The notes below the pieces were generated by a model. That model worked only from the letters and a program-made list of their open reading frames with translations. It was not told where the DNA came from and did no database searches. Shown one piece after another: positions 4,095 to 36,507 of a stretch of DNA of 64,000 bases (position 1 is the stretch's first letter; each line of letters starts with the position of its first letter). Source of the DNA: Sulfobacillus acidophilus DSM 10332 (GTDB lineage Bacteria; Bacillota; Sulfobacillia; Sulfobacillales; Sulfobacillaceae); NCBI GenBank assembly GCA_000237975.1, contig CP003179.1:434001-498000 (forward strand). The letters run 5' to 3'. The position numbers were made by a program, and so were the translations under genes.

Positions 4095-4438
4095 TAGCGT
4101 GACCTCGGGTATGCTCGGAGTCCGCGTTGGCGGGTTTATTGAGCGTACCCGGAGGTATCCATTGCATGATTTTTTCGTGTTTGGCCGAAGAGACTAACCA
4201 CTATTGTGTAGACTGATAGGCCCAGCATCCAGGAGGTGCGGTACGAGCCCGTTGGACAACCGGATGGAGTCTATCACCACGAGAACCTAACGTTGCGTGG
4301 GGATGGCGATAGGAAACGTTTCATTAGGTATTCCGACTTATGACCGAGGGCTTGTGCGATTTCTTGAGGATTATCAACACTGCCAGGACCTAGGTTCAAG
4401 CTCGCAGTACACTGAATGGCCGGTCGGATCCTTCCTCT
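4095..4438. other. intergenic region with imperfect inverted repeat
   Basis: No gene is supported here. An imperfect inverted repeat pairs 4103-4116 (CCTCGGGTATGCTC) with 4141-4155 (GAGCGTACCCGGAGG), with a 24-base loop and no T-tract, so it could be a processing or weak termination structure after the DUF917 operon. Positions 4233-4340 hold an open frame with plausible codons but no recognisable start or family; it may be a gene scrap. Confidence 0.4.
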
Positions 4439-5022
4439 TTAGGGTATCAAAGAAGGCAATACGGTTTTTAAAATCAGCATGGCTTGCTCGTAATTATTGG
4501 GATAGCCCCCAAATGAACCCTGTCGAACAAACTCAAATCCAGCCTTTAGGTAGATTGCAATTGCCTGATGAGACTCCACGTTTGGGTGTGGAGAAAGATG
4601 TCTCGGTCGCCCTCCAACCACACCAACCGTTGCAGGCATTCCGAGACTAATGCCTTCCCGAGCCCGAGTCCTTGATAGTCCGGGAGGACGGCCAACCAAT
4701 GAACGGAGGGATCCCGCCGCTCTTCTGTTGTGTTCCACCAACTCGTAATGGTGCCCACCGCGCGACCATCGTCTCTGCGCACAAACATACAGCGCCGGAT
4801 GAGCTCGTTGCGATGCGGCAGATATGTTTCTTGGAAGTACGCGAGGGCCTCGTCGGCCGTCATAAACTCGCCAACCGCGGTCTCAATGTGGGCCCACTCC
4901 ATTTCGTCGCCAGGAACAAATGCCGATAATGAAAATTCGGCAGGCAGCGCATGTTGGGCAATGGGCAATCCTGCCTTCCGTTTCATAATGATGTGAAAGT
5001 ACGGTAAAGTCTTATCTAACAC
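4439..5022 (-). pseudogene. GNAT N-acetyltransferase, frameshifted
   Basis: The first frame (5022 down to about 4580) starts at GTG with a GAGGTGA site 6 bases upstream and carries the acetyl-CoA binding region WLAVLPDYQGLGLGKALVSE, then ends just after HTQTWS. The natural continuation HQAIAIYLKAGFEFV is in another frame and runs to 4439. A two-base gain or one-base loss at about 4578-4585 therefore separates the beta4 region from the C-terminal beta6-beta7 part of the GNAT fold. The protein is either recently inactivated or the shift is a sequencing error. Substrate unknown. Confidence 0.75.
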
Positions 5023-25723: not shown

Positions 25724-28375
25724 ATGGATTCCGTTAGCGAAACCGTTCTGTATGTTGCGACAACCGGTAATGACCAAAATGCCGGGACTTCGCCCTCAGC
25801 TCCGTTTTTAACCATTCAACATGCGGTCAACGTGGCGGTGCAAACGTATTTACCCTTGGGACCGGTGGTGATTAATATTGCCCCCGGGACTTATGCCGAA
25901 CAAGTCACCGTTTCCTACGCATCTCCCTACGCTTTGACGTTAGTGGGCAGTGCTGATCCCGCCACACCGACCGTGATTCAGCCGACGACCTTAACAGCTA
26001 ATCTGACGGAGGAGAACACCGGGTATTTTTTTGATGACAACGTGGGACAAACGGCCGCCATTGTCGGCATTCAAGATACACAGGGACCGGTAACCGTGGA
26101 GTATTTGACGGTTTCTGGGGCGTCCTTAACCCCGGCGGGGTTAGCCACGGGTCAATGGTCAGGGATTGCTTATATTAACAGTTCCGGCACGGTTTCTCAC
26201 AATCAGGTCAAATCCATTGAGGTCTCTGCCATTATCGGGCAGGCGTCCGTCCACGGGATGGAAATGAAGACGACGGCCGGCACCCATTCCCTCGAGATTA
26301 CCCATAACTATCTGGCGCAATACGCCGGCCATGTGGCGATTGATTTGATGGCAGGAGGCTTAACGTCCGGGGTGTTAACCGCGACGGTTACGGATAATAT
26401 CATCATCGGTGACCCGGCCGACACCTTAACGCCGGTAGCGCAATTCGGGATTGCGGCCGGTGGGCTAAGTGGCTTAGTCGTTCGCCGCAATAATATTGCG
26501 CACTTTTCGTCCCCTTGGAATGTGTCGGGTATCTGGTTAGACCCCCTCAACCCCGAGGCAACCTGGACGATAGCATATAATTCCCTTGTGGCCAACGATA
26601 ACGGGATTTCGATCCATGGGGCATCGGGCGGCGTTATTGCGCATAATAGCATTTTAGCCGGTGCGGCGGGGATTGAAATGGGCCCACAATTTAACGTCCC
26701 ATCGGGACAAATTCCGGCGTCAAGTTCGAACAGTCTGATTCAGGGCAATACGATCGCGGGGTCACCTACCGTAGCCACCACCCAGGTGACAATTAACGGG
26801 ACCACGGTCGAATCGGCCATTACCGGGCAACCGGTAGACGGGATCCTCGTATGGGATGGGCAGCAAAATCGGTTTATCGGCAACCATGTGTCGGGGTTCG
26901 TAAACGATGCATACATGGGAGAGGACCCGGTGTTTTTAAATAATGCGGTCTCGTGGTCACCGGGAACCATGCCGTCGTACGACAACCAGGGCAATTCATT
27001 ATCGTTTAACGCATGGGGACCCTTGGCAACGCCGGCGTCATCATCGGGCGTGACGGGCTACGCGGTAGTCAACGCCAACAACGCAACACCCTTTGTGGTC
27101 GATGCCTCCAATAACTGGTGGGGCAGCCCGTCGGGGCCGAGTAATATCGCCAATACGTTTAATCCTGCGACGCAGGGATTACCGGTCTCGGCCGGTGTCA
27201 ATTACACGCCTTGGCTCACGTTTGTGCCCGCTCTGGATTTAACCGAGGCAACCGGACAAACCCCCTTTTCGTCCATTGGTGCCGCGTTGTCCGAGGCCAC
27301 GCCCGGAGCCTCTTTAAGCCTGGCGACCGGAACGTTTGTCGAAAATGTCACCGTTTCGATTTCCGGAGTAACCCTCGCGTCCCAGTCGTCCCTTGCCCCG
27401 GCGACGATTCAAGCGAGCCCGACGATGTCGATGCCCGCCACCATAAGCATTCAGGCTGACGACGTTACCATCCAATCGGTTACGGTGGAAGCTCCGAGTA
27501 GTGGATATGGTGTGTGGGTGGGAAGTGATCCCGCAAGCCCGATTTTGGGGGCCCAACTATTGGGGTGCCACATCATCGGTGGTGCCATCGGGATCCTATT
27601 TACGGCCGAAACGGAAGGGTCGGTCATCGGGGTGACCGTGGAACAGTTTGCGCGCTACGGCATTTCTTTGGGGAATGAGACGTTGGGGGGGCAAGGAAGT
27701 CGGGTTGCCGTGCAAAATAGCGTCGTCACGGGTGCTAATAGTCCATCCGGGACACTTACAGGGGTCCGGTGGACCGACGGGGCCGCCGGTATTTTGTCCG
27801 ATTCGGTGATTACCACGGTGGGGACCGGTGTTGTGATCGAGGATACGGCCGCCGTGACCCTCTCGCAAAACCAACTGCAATCCGTTCAAACCGGTATCGT
27901 AATAACCGCAACCACGGCCGGAAGCATCATGACCGATTTGGTCCTGACGAACAATTTGGTGGCGCCGACACCGTCAGTTTCCGGCGAAGTGGTTCGGGGA
28001 ATTTGGGTATACCCCCAAGTGGCGGCTACAACGATGGCGGTCATTGCGAATGAAAACCTGCTGCAAGGAGTCCTCGACGCTTTTGCCCAAGGGGTGGTCA
28101 TCGGGCAAACGGATGTCGCGGCCACCATCAGTTGGGCCGGGTCCGGCAATACCGTGACCGGATGGCGCACGGGACTGATGGTTTTGGGGGACCCTGCCGT
28201 GTTGACCTTTTCGTACAACAATATCGTGGACAACGTAACGGCGGCCAATAACGGCAGCGTATCGCCGATTGTGTTGTCCAACAACTGGTGGGGCGCGCCA
28301 AGTGCGCCAACGAACGTCAGCGGAAATCTGGTTGTTCAACCGGTGCTCACGGCACCCGTGGCATCAGCGTCGTGA
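25724..28375 (+). CDS. large right-handed beta-helix repeat protein
   Basis: An 883-residue protein rich in Thr, Val, Ala, Gly and Asn. The opening LYVATTGNDQNAGTSPSAPF and TIQHAVNVA is typical of NosD/pectin-lyase-like parallel beta-helix proteins, and many short repeats follow (NNIAHFSS, YNSLVANDNGISIHG, AHNSILAGAAGIEMG). It has two halves: each ends with an NNWWGxPSxP motif (about residues 463-472 and 848-857), and the second half restarts at PFSSIGAALSEATPG. There is no N-terminal signal peptide, which is unusual for this fold. GGAGG lies 13 bases before the ATG. A terminator follows. Ligand or enzymatic role not evident. Confidence 0.75.
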   Translation: MDSVSETVLYVATTGNDQNAGTSPSAPFLTIQHAVNVAVQTYLPLGPVVINIAPGTYAEQVTVSYASPYALTLVGSADPATPTVIQPTTLTANLTEENTGYFFDDNVGQTAAIVGIQDTQGPVTVEYLTVSGASLTPAGLATGQWSGIAYINSSGTVSHNQVKSIEVSAIIGQASVHGMEMKTTAGTHSLEITHNYLAQYAGHVAIDLMAGGLTSGVLTATVTDNIIIGDPADTLTPVAQFGIAAGGLSGLVVRRNNIAHFSSPWNVSGIWLDPLNPEATWTIAYNSLVANDNGISIHGASGGVIAHNSILAGAAGIEMGPQFNVPSGQIPASSSNSLIQGNTIAGSPTVATTQVTINGTTVESAITGQPVDGILVWDGQQNRFIGNHVSGFVNDAYMGEDPVFLNNAVSWSPGTMPSYDNQGNSLSFNAWGPLATPASSSGVTGYAVVNANNATPFVVDASNNWWGSPSGPSNIANTFNPATQGLPVSAGVNYTPWLTFVPALDLTEATGQTPFSSIGAALSEATPGASLSLATGTFVENVTVSISGVTLASQSSLAPATIQASPTMSMPATISIQADDVTIQSVTVEAPSSGYGVWVGSDPASPILGAQLLGCHIIGGAIGILFTAETEGSVIGVTVEQFARYGISLGNETLGGQGSRVAVQNSVVTGANSPSGTLTGVRWTDGAAGILSDSVITTVGTGVVIEDTAAVTLSQNQLQSVQTGIVITATTAGSIMTDLVLTNNLVAPTPSVSGEVVRGIWVYPQVAATTMAVIANENLLQGVLDAFAQGVVIGQTDVAATISWAGSGNTVTGWRTGLMVLGDPAVLTFSYNNIVDNVTAANNGSVSPIVLSNNWWGAPSAPTNVSGNLVVQPVLTAPVASAS

Positions 28376-31499: not shown

Positions 31500-31802
31500 G
31501 TGCTTAATCAGATGAATGTTACAATAAACTCGGTAAGGTATTTAACTTTAGGTCAGCACCGTCGACAAACGATTGAAAAGGTTCTCGCACAAATCGGCTT
31601 AGATTTCGAGGACACTATTTATACCCTACCCCAGTATGGGCATTTAGGTGGAACCGATGCGCTATTAGCCGTTCAACAGATGTGTCAGACGGACTTTGAT
31701 ACCGAACGTTCTTATGCCATAGTCATGTCCAGTGGGATTGGATATTCGTGGGGCGCGTTAATGTTATGGTTTAGACCAACAGAAAAGGGGAAATCCGCGT
31801 GA
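31500..31802 (+). pseudogene. ketoacyl-ACP synthase III-like C-terminal fragment
   Basis: The 100-residue frame resembles the last quarter of FabH-type condensing enzymes: IYTLPQYGHLGGTDALLAV contains the region around the catalytic Asn/His strand, and SYAIVMSSGIGYSWGALMLW the terminal strand. The N-terminal domain with the active-site Cys is missing, cut off near 31490 by the mobile-element remnants. It overlaps the next gene by GTGA, so the original gene was coupled to the aminotransferase. It has a GTG start but no good ribosome site. Confidence 0.65.
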
Positions 31803-32668
31803 TCGTGTTTTTAAACGGCGAATTTGTTGAAGACCATCAGGCCACGGTTTCTGTGTTTGACCATGGTCTCTTGTATGGAGACGGGATCTTCGAGGGAATT
31901 CGCGCATATGATGGGCAAGTGCTTGAATTAGACCGTCACCTTGACCGATTGATTAACTCAGCGAAATATATCAATTTACACATGCCATGGTCCAAGCAAG
32001 ATCTCCGGGATTTTGTTTTAGAGACTTTGCGACGCAATGAATTACACAGTGCGTATATTCGATTGGTCATTACACGAGGCCGGGGAGATTTAAGCTTAGA
32101 TCCGACGCGGTGTACTACCCCAACAATTTTTATCATTGCGACAGAAGTCAATTTATATCCTGCGGAACTTTATCAAACCGGTATTAAGGCGGTGACTGTC
32201 GCCACTCGCCGAGTGGCCGGAGATGCGCTAGATGCCCGGGCCAAAACATTAAATTACTTGAATAACATCTTAAGCAAAATGGAAGCGACGGCTCAACAGG
32301 CTCACGAAGCCGTATTATTAAATAACGAGGGGTATATCTCCGAGTGTTCGGCCGATAATATCTTCATTGTCAAAGGACAGCAGTTGGTTACACCCCCGGC
32401 CCATATGGGGGCGTTGGAGGGTGTGACACGAAATATTGTTATGGATATTGCCGCTGAAATTGGATTGCAATGCCAGGAATCGCCGATACGGCCCTATGAC
32501 GTCTACGCGGCCGACGAATGTTTCTTGACCGGTACCGGCGCGGAGCTGATACCGGTGGTCGAATTAGACCATCGCCCCATCGGAGCGGGTGTGCCGGGCA
32601 AGACATTCCAGCAATTACTGAAAGGTTTTCACAAATATATTAAAGCCCACGCAGTGCTCATTGATTAA
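31799..32668 (+). CDS. class IV aminotransferase (branched-chain amino acid aminotransferase type)
   Basis: A 289-residue PLP enzyme. Key features: FDHGLLYGDGIFEGIRAYDG near residues 21-40, RLVITRGRG near 82, the PLP-lysine in AKTLNYLNNILSKMEA (Lys about residue 146), EGYISECSADNIFIVK near 178-193, and the ECFLTGTGAELIPV strand near 239. These match IlvE-type and D-amino-acid-type class IV transaminases; the length is right for IlvE. GTG 31799 overlaps the stop of a KAS III-like fragment, hinting that the pair once made an amino-acid or acyl-derived product. Gene intact. Confidence 0.85.
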   Translation: MIVFLNGEFVEDHQATVSVFDHGLLYGDGIFEGIRAYDGQVLELDRHLDRLINSAKYINLHMPWSKQDLRDFVLETLRRNELHSAYIRLVITRGRGDLSLDPTRCTTPTIFIIATEVNLYPAELYQTGIKAVTVATRRVAGDALDARAKTLNYLNNILSKMEATAQQAHEAVLLNNEGYISECSADNIFIVKGQQLVTPPAHMGALEGVTRNIVMDIAAEIGLQCQESPIRPYDVYAADECFLTGTGAELIPVVELDHRPIGAGVPGKTFQQLLKGFHKYIKAHAVLID

Positions 32669-33643
32669 ATGCCGATCATAGGTCGATAGAGAGCATTACG
32701 CACACGCCGCACAAAGGGCGTGAGCAACAGGAGAATGGCTGTGATGACGCCCAGCAGCACCCCCGCCACGGTCGGTTGGCGGGATACATACCACACCGTG
32801 CCGCACCAAATAATCACCGTATAGGGAATATCGCGGACCAATCCGATCACGGCGTCAACCATGTGCAACACGTCTTGAAAACGCGTCAAAGCATCGCCGA
32901 TGGTATACCCGTGGTGATGCATCCGATCGAAAGCCGAAGTCATATCCCGCACGATATGCTGTGCTACATCGCGTTTGGCGGTCGCGGTCATCCAGGCGGT
33001 CACCGTCGACAGCATGAGAGAAAAAACCAGAAATCCGCTAGTCATGATGAGGAGTCGGTGAAGGTTGCCTAGAAAATAAGGAAACGCAATGGAAAAGACG
33101 GCATTGGAGACGCCGAGCACGGTGGCCGGTAGTGCTAGAAATGCCAGCCGCCCCACTGGGTATGAAACAATCGACGAACGATGATAGTAGTAGACAGCGA
33201 GCGTGCTGGGGAACCGCCCGAAGACGTGGGGGTCCGAGGCCTCAATACAATGGTAATCCCATCCCAATGCTCCAAAAACTCGTTCCATTCCACCGTCATC
33301 AGCCCGATACCCGGCTCACCGATGAGGACCGTTCGTGGCGTTTTTTGCCACACGACCACGAAATGGGCGTGTTTCGGCAAAAATGCGATAAACGGTAACA
33401 AAGTCTCATCTAATTGTGTCCAGTGGATTGCCGACCGATTTGGACCGTAAACAGGTCTTGTAAGCCCGGGAGAAATTGTTTTAGCGCCGTTCCTCGGGTA
33501 GAATCCGTGACTAGCCTACGCCGTAATTCGCTCAGTGAAGCCCGGATGCCATACCAATCAGCGAGGGCCATGACACATGCTGGCGCACAATCGTTAGCCG
33601 TTAATTGAAAATAAAAGGGGATATCCGGTAAGCGTTTTATCAT
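32665..33643 (-). pseudogene. C39-peptidase ABC exporter of bacteriocin type, frameshifted and truncated
   Basis: Starting at 33643 the first frame has the C39 peptidase motif FYFQLTANDCAPACVMALAD with the catalytic Cys. A frameshift at about 33430 continues with FLPKHAHFVVVWQ, containing the catalytic His, in another frame. A second shift at about 33240 leads into a transmembrane domain (VGRLAFLALPATVLGVSNAV and further helices). The frame ends at 32665, before any nucleotide-binding domain. Intact relatives of about 700 residues cut double-glycine leaders and export the peptide. Here three lesions make it non-functional. The stop at 32665 overlaps the end of the convergent aminotransferase. 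Confidence 0.8.
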
Positions 33644-33667
33644 TATCCATGCTCCAACCGTTAGGAA

Positions 33668-34015
33668 TCAAATGGGTTGTCGTAAAATACCGGTCAACAT
33701 TCCAACAATAGCCCCGATAAGGGACATGGCCCACATAATCTTGAAAATTGACGGTGTAAGTTTTCCTCGCCTGCTTTCAAACCCTATGGCAAAAATAAAG
33801 GGCGTTGCGGCGGTGATGATAGAGGAATCTTGAAACCAATTAAGGGAGAAGCCATTAATGACATCGGTAAGAAAGATAACCCCCAGAATTGTTGAAGAAA
33901 AGGCTATCAAGCCGTGACTTGCCCGGGAGAAACGGCTTTTAGTGGGTGAAGTTGCAAATATTAACAAAACGTTAACCAACCCAATAATTATACACACGAC
34001 GGCAATCATCAGCAC
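33668..34015 (-). CDS. small four-helix membrane protein, possible immunity protein
   Basis: A 115-residue protein with four predicted helices (about residues 3-21, 35-52, 66-79, 90-110). GTG 34015 has GGAG about 10 bases upstream. It lies between a bacteriocin-like precursor gene and a C39 exporter on the same strand, where immunity proteins usually are. I do not recognise a family, so the immunity role is purely positional. The region is clearly AT-richer than most of the window. Confidence 0.5.
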   Translation of the reverse strand: MLMIAVVCIIIGLVNVLLIFATSPTKSRFSRASHGLIAFSSTILGVIFLTDVINGFSLNWFQDSSIITAATPFIFAIGFESRRGKLTPSIFKIMWAMSLIGAIVGMLTGILRQPI

Positions 34016-34078
34016 AAAGCATTCGCTCCGTTCATAACGATAAATCTACCGACAGGTGGGTTCACGGTATCATCCTAG

Positions 34079-34094
34079 TTTAACGGGTTAAACC
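34079..34094. promoter_or_regulatory. small palindrome in the bacteriocin-like locus
   Basis: GTTTAAC-GG-GTTAAAC is a perfect inverted repeat between the precursor ORF and the membrane-protein gene, flanked by GTATCAT on both sides. It could be an operator. Confidence 0.35.
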
Positions 34095-34124
34095 GTATCA
34101 TAAGGAATTTAACCAAGGAAAGTC

Positions 34125-34367
34125 TTAACCCCAAAAACCCATGATAGCTCCCGCAGCTCCGCCGATTACAGCACTGGCAGCCACGCCCCAAGGACCAGCA
34201 AACGCACCGAGTTCAACACCATCCAATACACCACTTCCCACAAAGGTGGCCCATGATGACGCACCGGCAAAGGCACCGCCAACTCCTAAGCCAACGGCGT
34301 CGGCCCAGTTTCCCGAGCCGAACGCCCCCAGTTCGTCCGGGGAGAGTTCCGCCAGGTCACAGTGCAA
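34125..34367 (-). CDS. bacteriocin-like precursor with double-glycine-type leader
   Basis: An 80-residue glycine/alanine-rich peptide. The N-terminus matches a double-glycine leader: LSPDELGAFGSG has Leu-12, Ser-11, Glu-8, Leu-7, a hydrophobic residue at -4 and Gly-1 (Ser at -2 is a less common variant). The predicted mature part of 61 residues has many small-xxx-small motifs and ends AAGAIMGFWG, like class IIb pore-forming bacteriocins. The only start is TTG 34367 without a ribosome site, and a stop codon lies six codons upstream, so the 5' end may have been lost at a recombination joint near 34380. The C39 exporter downstream is broken. Confidence 0.6.
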   Translation of the reverse strand: MHCDLAELSPDELGAFGSGNWADAVGLGVGGAFAGASSWATFVGSGVLDGVELGAFAGPWGVAASAVIGGAAGAIMGFWG

Positions 34368-34569
34368 GTTGGCGATAGCGTACTAGCCATTCCATGTCGG
34401 GCGAGACACGATAATCCTTCCGGGCCCAATCGGCACTCATACGGAATGGTCGTCGATTCCCGTCCTTGTCAATGGCCGGCTGGTCGGGGTTGTCCCTCGG
34501 GAGTGGCAGGTACGTCAGAGCCGCCGTGAACACGCGTGGCAGCCAAGTGCCCTGTCTCACGTACACCAA
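34357..34569 (-). other. unrecognised 70-residue frame
   Basis: An open frame rich in charged residues (DNPDQPAIDKDGNRRPF) with no recognised family and no clear ribosome site. It may be the tail of a gene truncated when the PAS-HD remnant and the bacteriocin locus were joined. Confidence 0.2.
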
Positions 34570-34574
34570 TATAT

Positions 34575-35275
34575 TCTAGAATCTATCTTCACCGGACTCA
34601 TAATTGTGGATCAAGGCGGTATCACCCGCATGCTGAATCCAGCTGGCGCGGAAATCTTAGGGTCGATGCCCGTTCCGTGGTCAATCGACCCTACGAAGAG
34701 TTGGCCCAATACCTATTTCCCCATATGCGCGACTATTTGAAAGGAAGTGCGGTGCCCCTGGCTCTCATGGGGAAGGCCGACCGGGGAGAACGGGAACTGC
34801 GCTTGCCGAATGGACGAGACGTGCTGTTTAAGTTTTCCGTTATGCGTGACTCAGAACGCGTAAGTGCGGTGGTTGTCACGTTTATGGATGTAACCCCGCT
34901 AAAACAAGCCGAAGCACGGGCCTCCCATCAACAACAAGAACTCGACATGGCATTCGCACTGACGTTGCCGAACAGCAAAATCGAGGCCAAACTGAAATCG
35001 TCACCCGAATATCAGGATATATACAATGTCGAAACCGGACAGGCGGTCGTCACCGGCGTCATCCCTGACGGGACGTATCGTCATGTCATCAACGGGCTAC
35101 GCATCATGGCGGAACTGAAGGCCGTCGGTGCGTTTGATCTGGTGGGCATCGACAAGGATACGATGGTGCAGGCCTTTATTTTTCACGACATCAGCAAAGC
35201 TCAACCCGATTTGCGGGTCGGGGAGACATTTGTGCCGCGAAAAACATTCGAACCGAGCCATTTACATGCCGAGCG
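34575..35275 (+). pseudogene. PAS-HD domain protein, frameshifted and truncated
   Basis: One frame begins FTGLIIVDQGGITRMLNPAG, a PAS-domain start. A shift near 34660 continues in another frame with VNRPYEELAQYLFPHMRDYL and the PAS end VVTFMDVTPLKQAE, then an HD-type domain with QAFIFHDISKAQPDL (HD dyad). Homology stops at about 35275, where the reverse strand of a CBS-domain gene begins. Both termini of the ancestor are missing. It may have been a sensor or nucleotide phosphohydrolase. Confidence 0.6.
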
Positions 35276-35498
35276 TATGGTGGTGCAACAAATCCGATGC
35301 CACATCGACCTCATCGTCGGGATGAACGACCGGCACCGTCTCGACGGGCTGCATCATCTCGACCAACGTTGTCGCATTCGGGTTGAAGTCATCTAGCCGC
35401 ACCACCCCCACGAGACGCTGATCAGGGGTAACCACGTACAGCGTTCGGTGCGGGCTGGTCTTGTCAATGGCCAGTTTTCTTTCGACAAACGTGGCCAA
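35276..35498 (-). pseudogene. CBS-domain fragment (MgtE-like)
   Basis: On the minus strand: RTLYVVTPDQRLVGVVRLDD followed by LVEMMQPVETVPVVHPDDEV, a CBS domain with the order of strands seen in MgtE-type magnesium transporters. It has no membrane part, is cut at 35275 by the PAS-HD remnant and lies against the IS21-type element at its other end. Non-functional. Confidence 0.55.
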
Positions 35499-35522: not shown

Positions 35523-36260
35523 TTACACGGAGCTCTCCGTGCCCCCTTTCAGTCGGTAACTTTCGCCAGAAAACGTATACACATAGGCATGATGAAGCAG
35601 GCGGTCTAGGGTAGCGCTCGCCAGCGATGGATTCGGAAATAGTGCGCCCCAGTCTTGGAATGAGCGGTTGCTCGTGACGATGAGGCTTTGCCGCTCATAG
35701 GCCGCCGACACGACTTGGAATAGGTGGTTGCCGGCGGTATTGTCCATCGGGATATAGCCGAGTTCGTCAATGACCAGCAGATCGAGCTTGCTCCACGCGC
35801 GTAGCACCTGTTTGACGGTGCCATCCGCCATGGCCGCGTAGCAGCGGTCCACGAGCTCCTGCGCCGTGGTGAACATCACCTCCTTTCCCTGAACGGCGGC
35901 TTCATAGGCGAGTGCACTGGCAATGTGGGTTTTTCCGAGCCCCGGAGGACCCAGTAAAATGACGTTCTCGTGTTGGTCCACAAAGCGCAAGCTGTGGAGT
36001 TCCAAGATTTCGCGCTTCGGCAAACTGGGCTGAAAAGCCCAGTCGAAGTCGGCTAGGCTCTTCGGCACCGGGATCCGCGCCGCTCGCAGGCGTTTGGCCC
36101 GTTGGGTTTCCTCGCGAGCCGCCACTTCCTCCATCACAATCAGCTTGAGAAATTCCCGAAAGTTCATATCACGGGTGGCCGCCAGTTGGCAGTATTCGTC
36201 CACATGGTCGCGGGTTTGCCGCAGTTTCAGCCGTTTCAGCCCCTCCAACAGCTCATCCAT
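35523..36260 (-). CDS. istB: IS21-family helper ATPase IstB
   Basis: A 245-residue AAA+ ATPase. Walker A GPPGLGKTH near residue 108, Walker B LLVIDELGYIP near 168 and sensor region VTSNRSFQDWG near 206 match IstB. ATG 36260 (MDELLEGLKRL) has GGAGGGCC upstream and is the family's natural start; the longer frame to 36437 reads through the istA remnant. IstB assists IstA in target selection. Its partner is only an 84-residue fragment, so this copy cannot transpose unaided. Confidence 0.85.
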   Translation of the reverse strand: MDELLEGLKRLKLRQTRDHVDEYCQLAATRDMNFREFLKLIVMEEVAAREETQRAKRLRAARIPVPKSLADFDWAFQPSLPKREILELHSLRFVDQHENVILLGPPGLGKTHIASALAYEAAVQGKEVMFTTAQELVDRCYAAMADGTVKQVLRAWSKLDLLVIDELGYIPMDNTAGNHLFQVVSAAYERQSLIVTSNRSFQDWGALFPNPSLASATLDRLLHHAYVYTFSGESYRLKGGTESSV

Positions 36261-36507
36261 GGGTGGCCCTCCTTCCGGCGGTCGCATAGTAAGAATGTTC
36301 CAGATACGGGTCAATCGCATGTGCGCGTGCCGTACGGCACGCGACCGTTTCGAGGGGGTACCCGGATTTCTGGGCTTGGTCCATCCGTTCCAAATACCGG
36401 GCGACCGTCTGGCGATGCAGCCCGAGTCGTTCCGCAATTGCCGTCTGGGACAATCCCTCGTCTTTCAATGTCCGAACTCGTATCATAGTCATGAGAGTCT
36501 CTCGCAT
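36253..36507 (-). pseudogene. istA: IS21-family transposase IstA, N-terminal fragment
   Basis: The 84-residue frame carries the IstA helix-turn-helix (LKDEGLSQTAIAERLGLHRQ and TVARYLERMD), then stops after about 75 residues of homology and overlaps the start of istB by 8 bases. The complete catalytic DDE domain has been deleted in frame with the downstream gene arrangement. A GAGGAGCAG site precedes the start. Confidence 0.75.

Follow-up and report, generated by a model that had tools for sequence, protein, structure and literature searches.

A decayed bacteriocin-type locus in Sulfobacillus acidophilus and its intact Sulfobacillaceae relatives with a C39 exporter lacking an ATPase domain

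Exporters of the PCAT/AMS type, such as PCAT1, ComA and LahT, carry a C39 peptidase followed by the membrane domain of an ABC exporter, and their substrates bear a double-glycine leader, which usually ends in GG, GA or GS. To our knowledge, known PCATs combine peptidase, channel and motor in a single polypeptide. NHLP/nitrile-hydratase-leader export systems (TIGR03796 and its partner) use a full-length PCAT with an ATPase domain (NBD) together with another type of leader. Among bacteriocins, class IIb two-peptide loci combine leadered precursors with an adjoining small membrane protein and a C39 exporter, and typical class II peptides are cationic. A further pair of systems, AS-48EFGH and YknWXYZ, in which we know of no C39-TMD protein (a C39 peptidase joined to an ABC membrane domain), acts in immunity. 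In these, a trio of HlyD protein, ATPase and MacB protein, together with a small membrane protein, protects the producer, according to passages of PMC5985334.

The genome of S. acidophilus DSM 10332 comprises two contigs totaling 3,557,831 bp, and the window, the whole 64-kb stretch that we analyzed, corresponds to G000:C1:434001-498000 of the larger contig (C1; 3,472,898 bp). Its minus-strand frame map bears out the original prediction that a precursor, a membrane protein and a C39 exporter lie in order on one strand: the precursor frame is followed by a 115-aa membrane protein and then by the exporter pieces (33643 to 32665; Table 1). Directly before the ilvE-like gene, a 100-aa frame (31500-31802) matches 3-oxoacyl-ACP synthase III in its C-terminal domain alone (PF08541) and is probably a truncated gene. 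Elsewhere, the window encodes an 883-aa NosD-like right-handed beta-helix protein (25724-28375; PF13229) and an IS21-type IstB ATPase (35523-36507, minus strand; PF01695), upstream of which a gene fragment may represent IstA.

Table 1. Features of the window locus, and gene content of the intact loci in three relatives.
Feature	Position in window	Strand	Remarks
Precursor remnant	34125..34364	-	Leader HCDLAELSPDELGAFGSG and core NWADAVGLG...GAIMGFWG; TTG at 34367, TAG upstream
Inverted fragment of neighboring PAS/CBS/HD-type gene	34366..34440	-	Abuts precursor 5' end (junction)
Intact 115-aa membrane protein, probable immunity protein	33668..34015	-	GTG start
C39-TMD exporter pseudogene, extent of homology	32683..33634	-	Residues 10-328 of 442
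C39-TMD piece 1	33410..33643	-	N-terminal half of peptidase; active-site Gln and Cys present
C39-TMD piece 2	33135..33401	-	C-terminal half of peptidase; His kept, catalytic Asp replaced by Glu
C39-TMD piece 3	32665..33288	-	ABC transmembrane part, cut short beside ilvE; contains coupling motif GDALTRFQD
ilvE-like gene	31799-32668	Opposite to exporter pseudogene	Name assigned from sequence
G045 locus			Precursor 1, 77 aa; precursor 2, 71 aa; membrane protein, 153 aa; C39-TMD, 442 aa
G045 locus, downstream			HlyD-like, 353 aa; ATPase, 231 aa; MacB-like permease, 384 aa
G012 locus			Precursor, 102 aa; membrane protein, 130 aa; C39-TMD, 459 aa; HlyD-like, 448 aa
G019 locus			Precursor, 76 aa; membrane protein, 182 aa; C39-TMD cut off by contig end

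In the double-glycine-type leader of the precursor, HCDLAELSPDELGAFGSG, residues Leu, Glu, Leu and Phe occupy positions -12, -8, -7 and -4, a spacing that fits the rule for C39 substrate leaders given in passages of PMC6363468. The leader ends in Ser-Gly, in place of the usual GG, GA or GS. Behind it lies a core of 61 aa with a net charge of -3, in which Gly makes up 26% and Ala 23% of the residues and GxxxG occurs seven times, bearing out the leader and the glycine-rich, small-xxx-small core that had been described from the letters. The precursor matches no Pfam or NCBIfam model, in keeping with the remark that it was not a recognized peptide, and no plasmid record. In a search of 41 genomes, 22 gave matches at E values up to 1; apart from the window itself, the best of these fell inside long frames, and we noticed none adjoining the C39 genes found by PF03412. 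Two of the matches, G012:C96 and G011:C22, were considered as homologues and rejected, as inspection of either site revealed nothing precursor-like.

GC-rich DNA readily yields Gly/Ala-rich frames, and the antisense frame of the precursor is also open. Together with the lack of precursor homologues in sequence searches, these points agree with a reading in which the precursor is a chance frame and only an unrelated C39 pseudogene is real. Against this, we translated the 64 kb in six frames, scanned every segment of 40 aa or longer with a strict leader pattern (L-x3-E-hydrophobic-x2-hydrophobic-x-small-small) and found two occurrences, one of which is the precursor directly upstream of the C39 locus. 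Its placement is the same as that of the precursors in three relatives (G045, G012 and G019), where Shine-Dalgarno-like purine stretches precede the genes. We therefore regard a chance origin of the frame as very improbable.

The region 5' of the precursor supports the claim that it has lost its start. A 70-aa minus-strand frame (34357-34569) overlaps the precursor's 5' end in a different frame. Over residues 44-68 it matches 470-480 aa proteins encoded in the genomes G007 and G010; the one from G010 carries CBS, PAS and HD domains. On the plus strand, the frame 34536-35396 reads by eye, against the G007 and G010 proteins, like the remainder of a broken PAS/CBS/HD-type gene; Pfam identified no domain in this frame itself. 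A C-terminal fragment of a PAS/CBS/HD-type gene has been joined to the precursor at around 34366 by an inversion or a similar rearrangement. TTG 34367 is an improbable candidate for the true precursor start and was rejected as such, because it falls where the foreign fragment ends and no ribosome site is visible for it. For the same reasons, the original start is most likely gone, with this TTG a by-product of the junction.

The exporter gene is likewise broken. Pfam detects Peptidase_C39 in both peptidase pieces of the window (E values of 7.5e-5 and 4e-10), and when the intact relatives are compared with the window by tblastn, the match falls into three collinear pieces. These lie in frames -2, -1 and -3, and the frame shifts near 33416-33425 and 33147-33153. 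The proposal that the exporter contains two frameshifts is therefore correct. Homology ends at residue 328 of 442, at position 32683, 15 bp from the ilvE stop codon, and the active-site Asp reads Glu in this copy. The description of the locus as a decayed one of bacteriocin type is supported.

The suggestion that relatives might hold intact versions proved right: they occur in three other genera of the same acidophile family (G045, G012 and G019), all three with the order precursor, small membrane protein and C39-TMD. PF03412 is present in 6 of 61 related genomes, and exporter piece 3 finds matches in four of the 61. A profile of the three intact C39-TMD proteins matches 6 of 154 genomes of the whole class; the close family among these numbers four (S. 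acidophilus, G012, G019 and G045), representing four genera of one family. A contig search of a wider genome collection with very narrow patterns again returned only G012 and G019. In a sample of the phylum, the profile matched 27 of 398 genomes at 1e-10, and outside the window's own genome the matching frames measured at least 722 aa with one exception, a 257-aa frame at a contig end in G384. Against plasmid records, the G045 protein gave 41 matches, all below 60% identity and none covering 80%; for most of the 20 listed among these 41, an annotated peptidase-domain ABC transporter lies under the match. Viral contigs gave no match. From these comparisons, the locus appears to be a variant of the double-glycine bacteriocin locus, with an NBD-less C39-ABC exporter, that in the searches made is confined to Sulfobacillaceae.

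The precursors of the window and of the relatives do not detect one another in sequence searches. They are tied by position and leader only. The original prediction had named the absence of homologues next to C39 exporters as its test, and had proposed searching related genomes for the precursor core and the C39 gene: counterparts by position and leader, and the C39 gene in intact loci of the same acidophile family, were found, but the core sequence was not. The leader of G045 precursor 2 fits the class II spacing with Ile at -7, and for G012, G019 and G045 precursor 1 the choice of cut decides whether the motif falls in register or one residue closer. G045 has two tandem precursors with leaders, and a single precursor is seen in G012, G019 and the window; G012 also contains another C39-TMD copy, which is decayed. 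By position, the relatives' small membrane proteins (130, 153 and 182 aa) correspond to the 115-aa protein, and we claim no homology between them.

We judged the absence of an NBD on the two loci with complete 3' ends, G045 and G012. In both, the C39-TMD protein is whole at 442-459 aa, with a C39 domain, an ABC membrane domain and no ATPase domain. The HlyD-like gene begins 11 nt after its end in G045 and overlaps it by 61 nt in G012, and therefore leaves no room for an NBD. The prediction that the S. acidophilus exporter lacks an ATPase domain was accurate, but its attribution to decay does not hold: both 3'-complete relatives also lack one, and its absence is the ancestral design.

In other respects these proteins resemble PCATs closely. 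PF03412 scores above its cut-off in the intact G045 protein (6.5e-20), and all three intact proteins share Gln19, Cys25, His99 and Asp115, with the same spacing as the active site of LahT (Gln21/Cys27/His101/Asp117) given in passages of PMC6363468. The three-protein profile aligns with PCAT1 at an E value of 4e-21 over residues 19-345, which comprise the C39 domain and most of the membrane domain; Pfam ABC_membrane gives no match to the G045 protein at an E value of 0.5. An AlphaFold model of the C39-TMD protein (mean pLDDT 57.9, pTM 0.47) is too weak for detail and was used for overall fold only, and the best match in the PDB of this low-confidence model is again PCAT1 (E value of 5e-15). Unlike the PCAT/AMS exporters, the Sulfobacillaceae protein ends right after the membrane domain, with no NBD in its chain. 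Because this defining part was missing when tested, we do not class it as a standard PCAT; it probably works like one with its motor supplied in trans. Against the NHLP model, the G045 protein scores weakly, at an E value of 1.5e-10 and far under the cut-off, and the Sulfobacillaceae locus differs from NHLP systems both in lacking the full-length exporter and in its leader type. Two genomes of the same family, G005 and G014, encode C39 exporters of about 730 aa that resemble the NHLP kind. Their loci (L044 and L045) hold an HlyD-like gene, the full-length C39 ABC exporter and a second ABC protein of about 1074 aa, and in L045 the frame at 4155-4571 has, by eye, the look of an NHLP-type precursor with a double-glycine leader.

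A motorless exporter raises the question of what drives it. We chose residues 252-283 and 317-345 as the limits of the coupling loops, which we take to be the parts that touch the ATPase in ABC exporters. Across the three intact proteins, 34 of 60 positions are invariant in these loops, versus 58 of 198 in the rest of the membrane domain, and the best-conserved 15 residues of the membrane domain begin at the coupling motif, FYTLGDGYTRFQD. Such conservation would be surprising in loops without a coupling partner, so the exporter is likely driven in trans by an ATPase.

In G045, we propose the adjacent 231-aa ATPase as the obvious candidate partner. It scores best against the FtsE model, closely followed by lactococcin-972-type and LolD models, and it sits with an HlyD-like adaptor and a permease bearing MacB_PCD. 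The trio of adaptor, LolD-type ATPase and MacB-type permease is complete in G045, and G012 has the adaptor alone, with no ATPase or MacB-like gene adjoining its locus. Neither G012 nor G019 contains a close counterpart of the G045 ATPase, the best hits (36-38% identity) being at background level, and only in G045 was a complete MacB-like permease found; G003 contains a piece of a broken one and G037 a distant relative (24%), and the search gave none in G012. The partner ATPase thus stays a proposal. Only one of the three intact loci has the separate ATPase and the MacB-like permease linked to it, which counts against a MacB-type partner, and we know of no MacB-type ATPase that powers a PCAT-fold exporter. 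We put forward only tentatively the idea that a split, motorless PCAT matures and exports bacteriocins by borrowing a MacB/LolD-type (type VII) ATPase, which would join two ABC architectures not known to cooperate. The G003 piece (L092; G003:C92 3075-3726) lies on a short contig from which the rest of the locus is absent.

The G045 locus has the same parts as AS-48EFGH and YknWXYZ, namely a membrane protein, an HlyD-like protein, an FtsE/LolD-type ATPase and a MacB-like permease, but here the trio stands behind an NBD-less peptidase exporter. Because trios of this type protect the producer, the one in G045 could be a pump or an immunity system, and this keeps alive a rival reading in which the C39-TMD protein acts solely as a leader peptidase anchored in the membrane and its ABC membrane domain no longer transports, with export falling to the HlyD-ATPase-MacB pump in the manner of YknXYZ or AS-48FGH. 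An HlyD-like adaptor lies directly downstream in both loci that have that stretch (G045 and G012), the affinities of the G045 ATPase and permease point the same way, and passages of PMC5985334 describe such trios as protecting against SDP and AS-48. The strong conservation of the coupling loops, however, suggests that the C39-TMD protein still contacts a motor, and our search for relatives of the G045 MacB-like permease gave none in G012. A peptidase-only role is in our view possible though doubtful, and we prefer an exporter with its motor in trans.

Two further remnants of the locus lie elsewhere in S. acidophilus. The first, at 575 kb on C1 (L040 9317-9978), aligns with the window locus over 664 columns at 92.6% DNA identity. 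It runs from the precursor's last codons through a complete gene for the 115-aa membrane protein (81% identical) into the start of the C39 gene, which is broken. Beyond it lie frames that look transposase-like by eye. The other, at C1:1,327,882-1,328,172 (L079 8801-9173), corresponds to the C-terminal part of C39-TMD and has in-frame stops. Across the window locus and these remnants, the membrane protein gene is the sole gene left open, and is so twice. The original description of this protein as having four helices is reasonable: a simple hydropathy scan gives three clear hydrophobic segments in the window protein and four in a lone 33% homologue in G047, a genome in which the profile search found no C39-TMD match.

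Comparison of the two copies of the 115-aa gene gives dN of 0.110 and dS of 0.042 (Fisher p 0.18). The 30 substitutions include 22 amino-acid changes and no stops, and both figures fit a neutral simulation; diversifying selection was considered and is not claimed, as 22 changes without a stop are expected by chance. In post hoc tests, the 345 bp of the gene hold no indels versus five gap columns in the flanks (p 0.02), and the substitution rate is higher in the gene than in the flanks (p 0.04). The absence of indels hints at constraint. The protein is a probable immunity protein, and a gene open in two copies is what would be expected of retained immunity, but neutral drift explains the changes equally well.

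We favor, with moderate confidence, a reading of the window as a decayed class II-like bacteriocin locus with an NBD-less C39 exporter, an ATPase in trans, a membrane-inserting peptide and an immunity protein; cleavage, export, partner ATPase, killing and immunity are functions that we infer. In an intact locus, the double-glycine leader of a 71-102 aa precursor would be recognized and cut by the NBD-less C39-TMD protein, which would also give the export path. An ATPase acting in trans would energize export; in G045 this would most simply be the MacB/LolD-type ATPase two genes downstream, working with the HlyD-like adaptor and MacB-like permease. The freed Gly/Ala-rich GxxxG peptide would insert into the membranes of competitor cells, and the small membrane protein encoded between precursor and exporter would shield the producer. 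Toxin and exporter are both broken in S. acidophilus, and the membrane protein gene, open in two copies, would provide retained immunity.

Class IIb loci provide the nearest comparison for the peptide, given the GxxxG-rich core in the window and the two tandem precursors of G045. The differences are that the window core is anionic, and at 61 aa and a net charge of -3 is not the small cationic core of class II bacteriocins, that three of the four loci have one precursor and that no family model matches. The net negative core also agrees with an alternative in which the peptides serve as signals (pheromones) instead of toxins, with the membrane protein acting as a receptor or an accessory protein; C39 exporters export quorum peptides as well, according to passages of PMC6363468. 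Cores of about 50-70 aa, GxxxG-rich in the window, the tandem precursors of G045 and the membrane-protein neighbor nevertheless fit two-peptide bacteriocins better, and among the listed ORFs flanking the loci we noticed no histidine kinase or regulator. We consider a signaling role improbable and retain the bacteriocin reading.

In the open-access literature we found no description of a Sulfobacillus bacteriocin or of an NBD-less C39-ABC exporter, and the word "bacteriocin" is absent from the main text of PMC3558970 and PMC4378227.

Sulfobacillus is acid-loving and is used industrially in bioleaching, and the window is a wreck that points to intact loci in its family. A natural C39 exporter without a motor asks which parts of such a protein serve cleavage, transport and energy, and raises the question of which ATPase can drive an exporter fold from outside.
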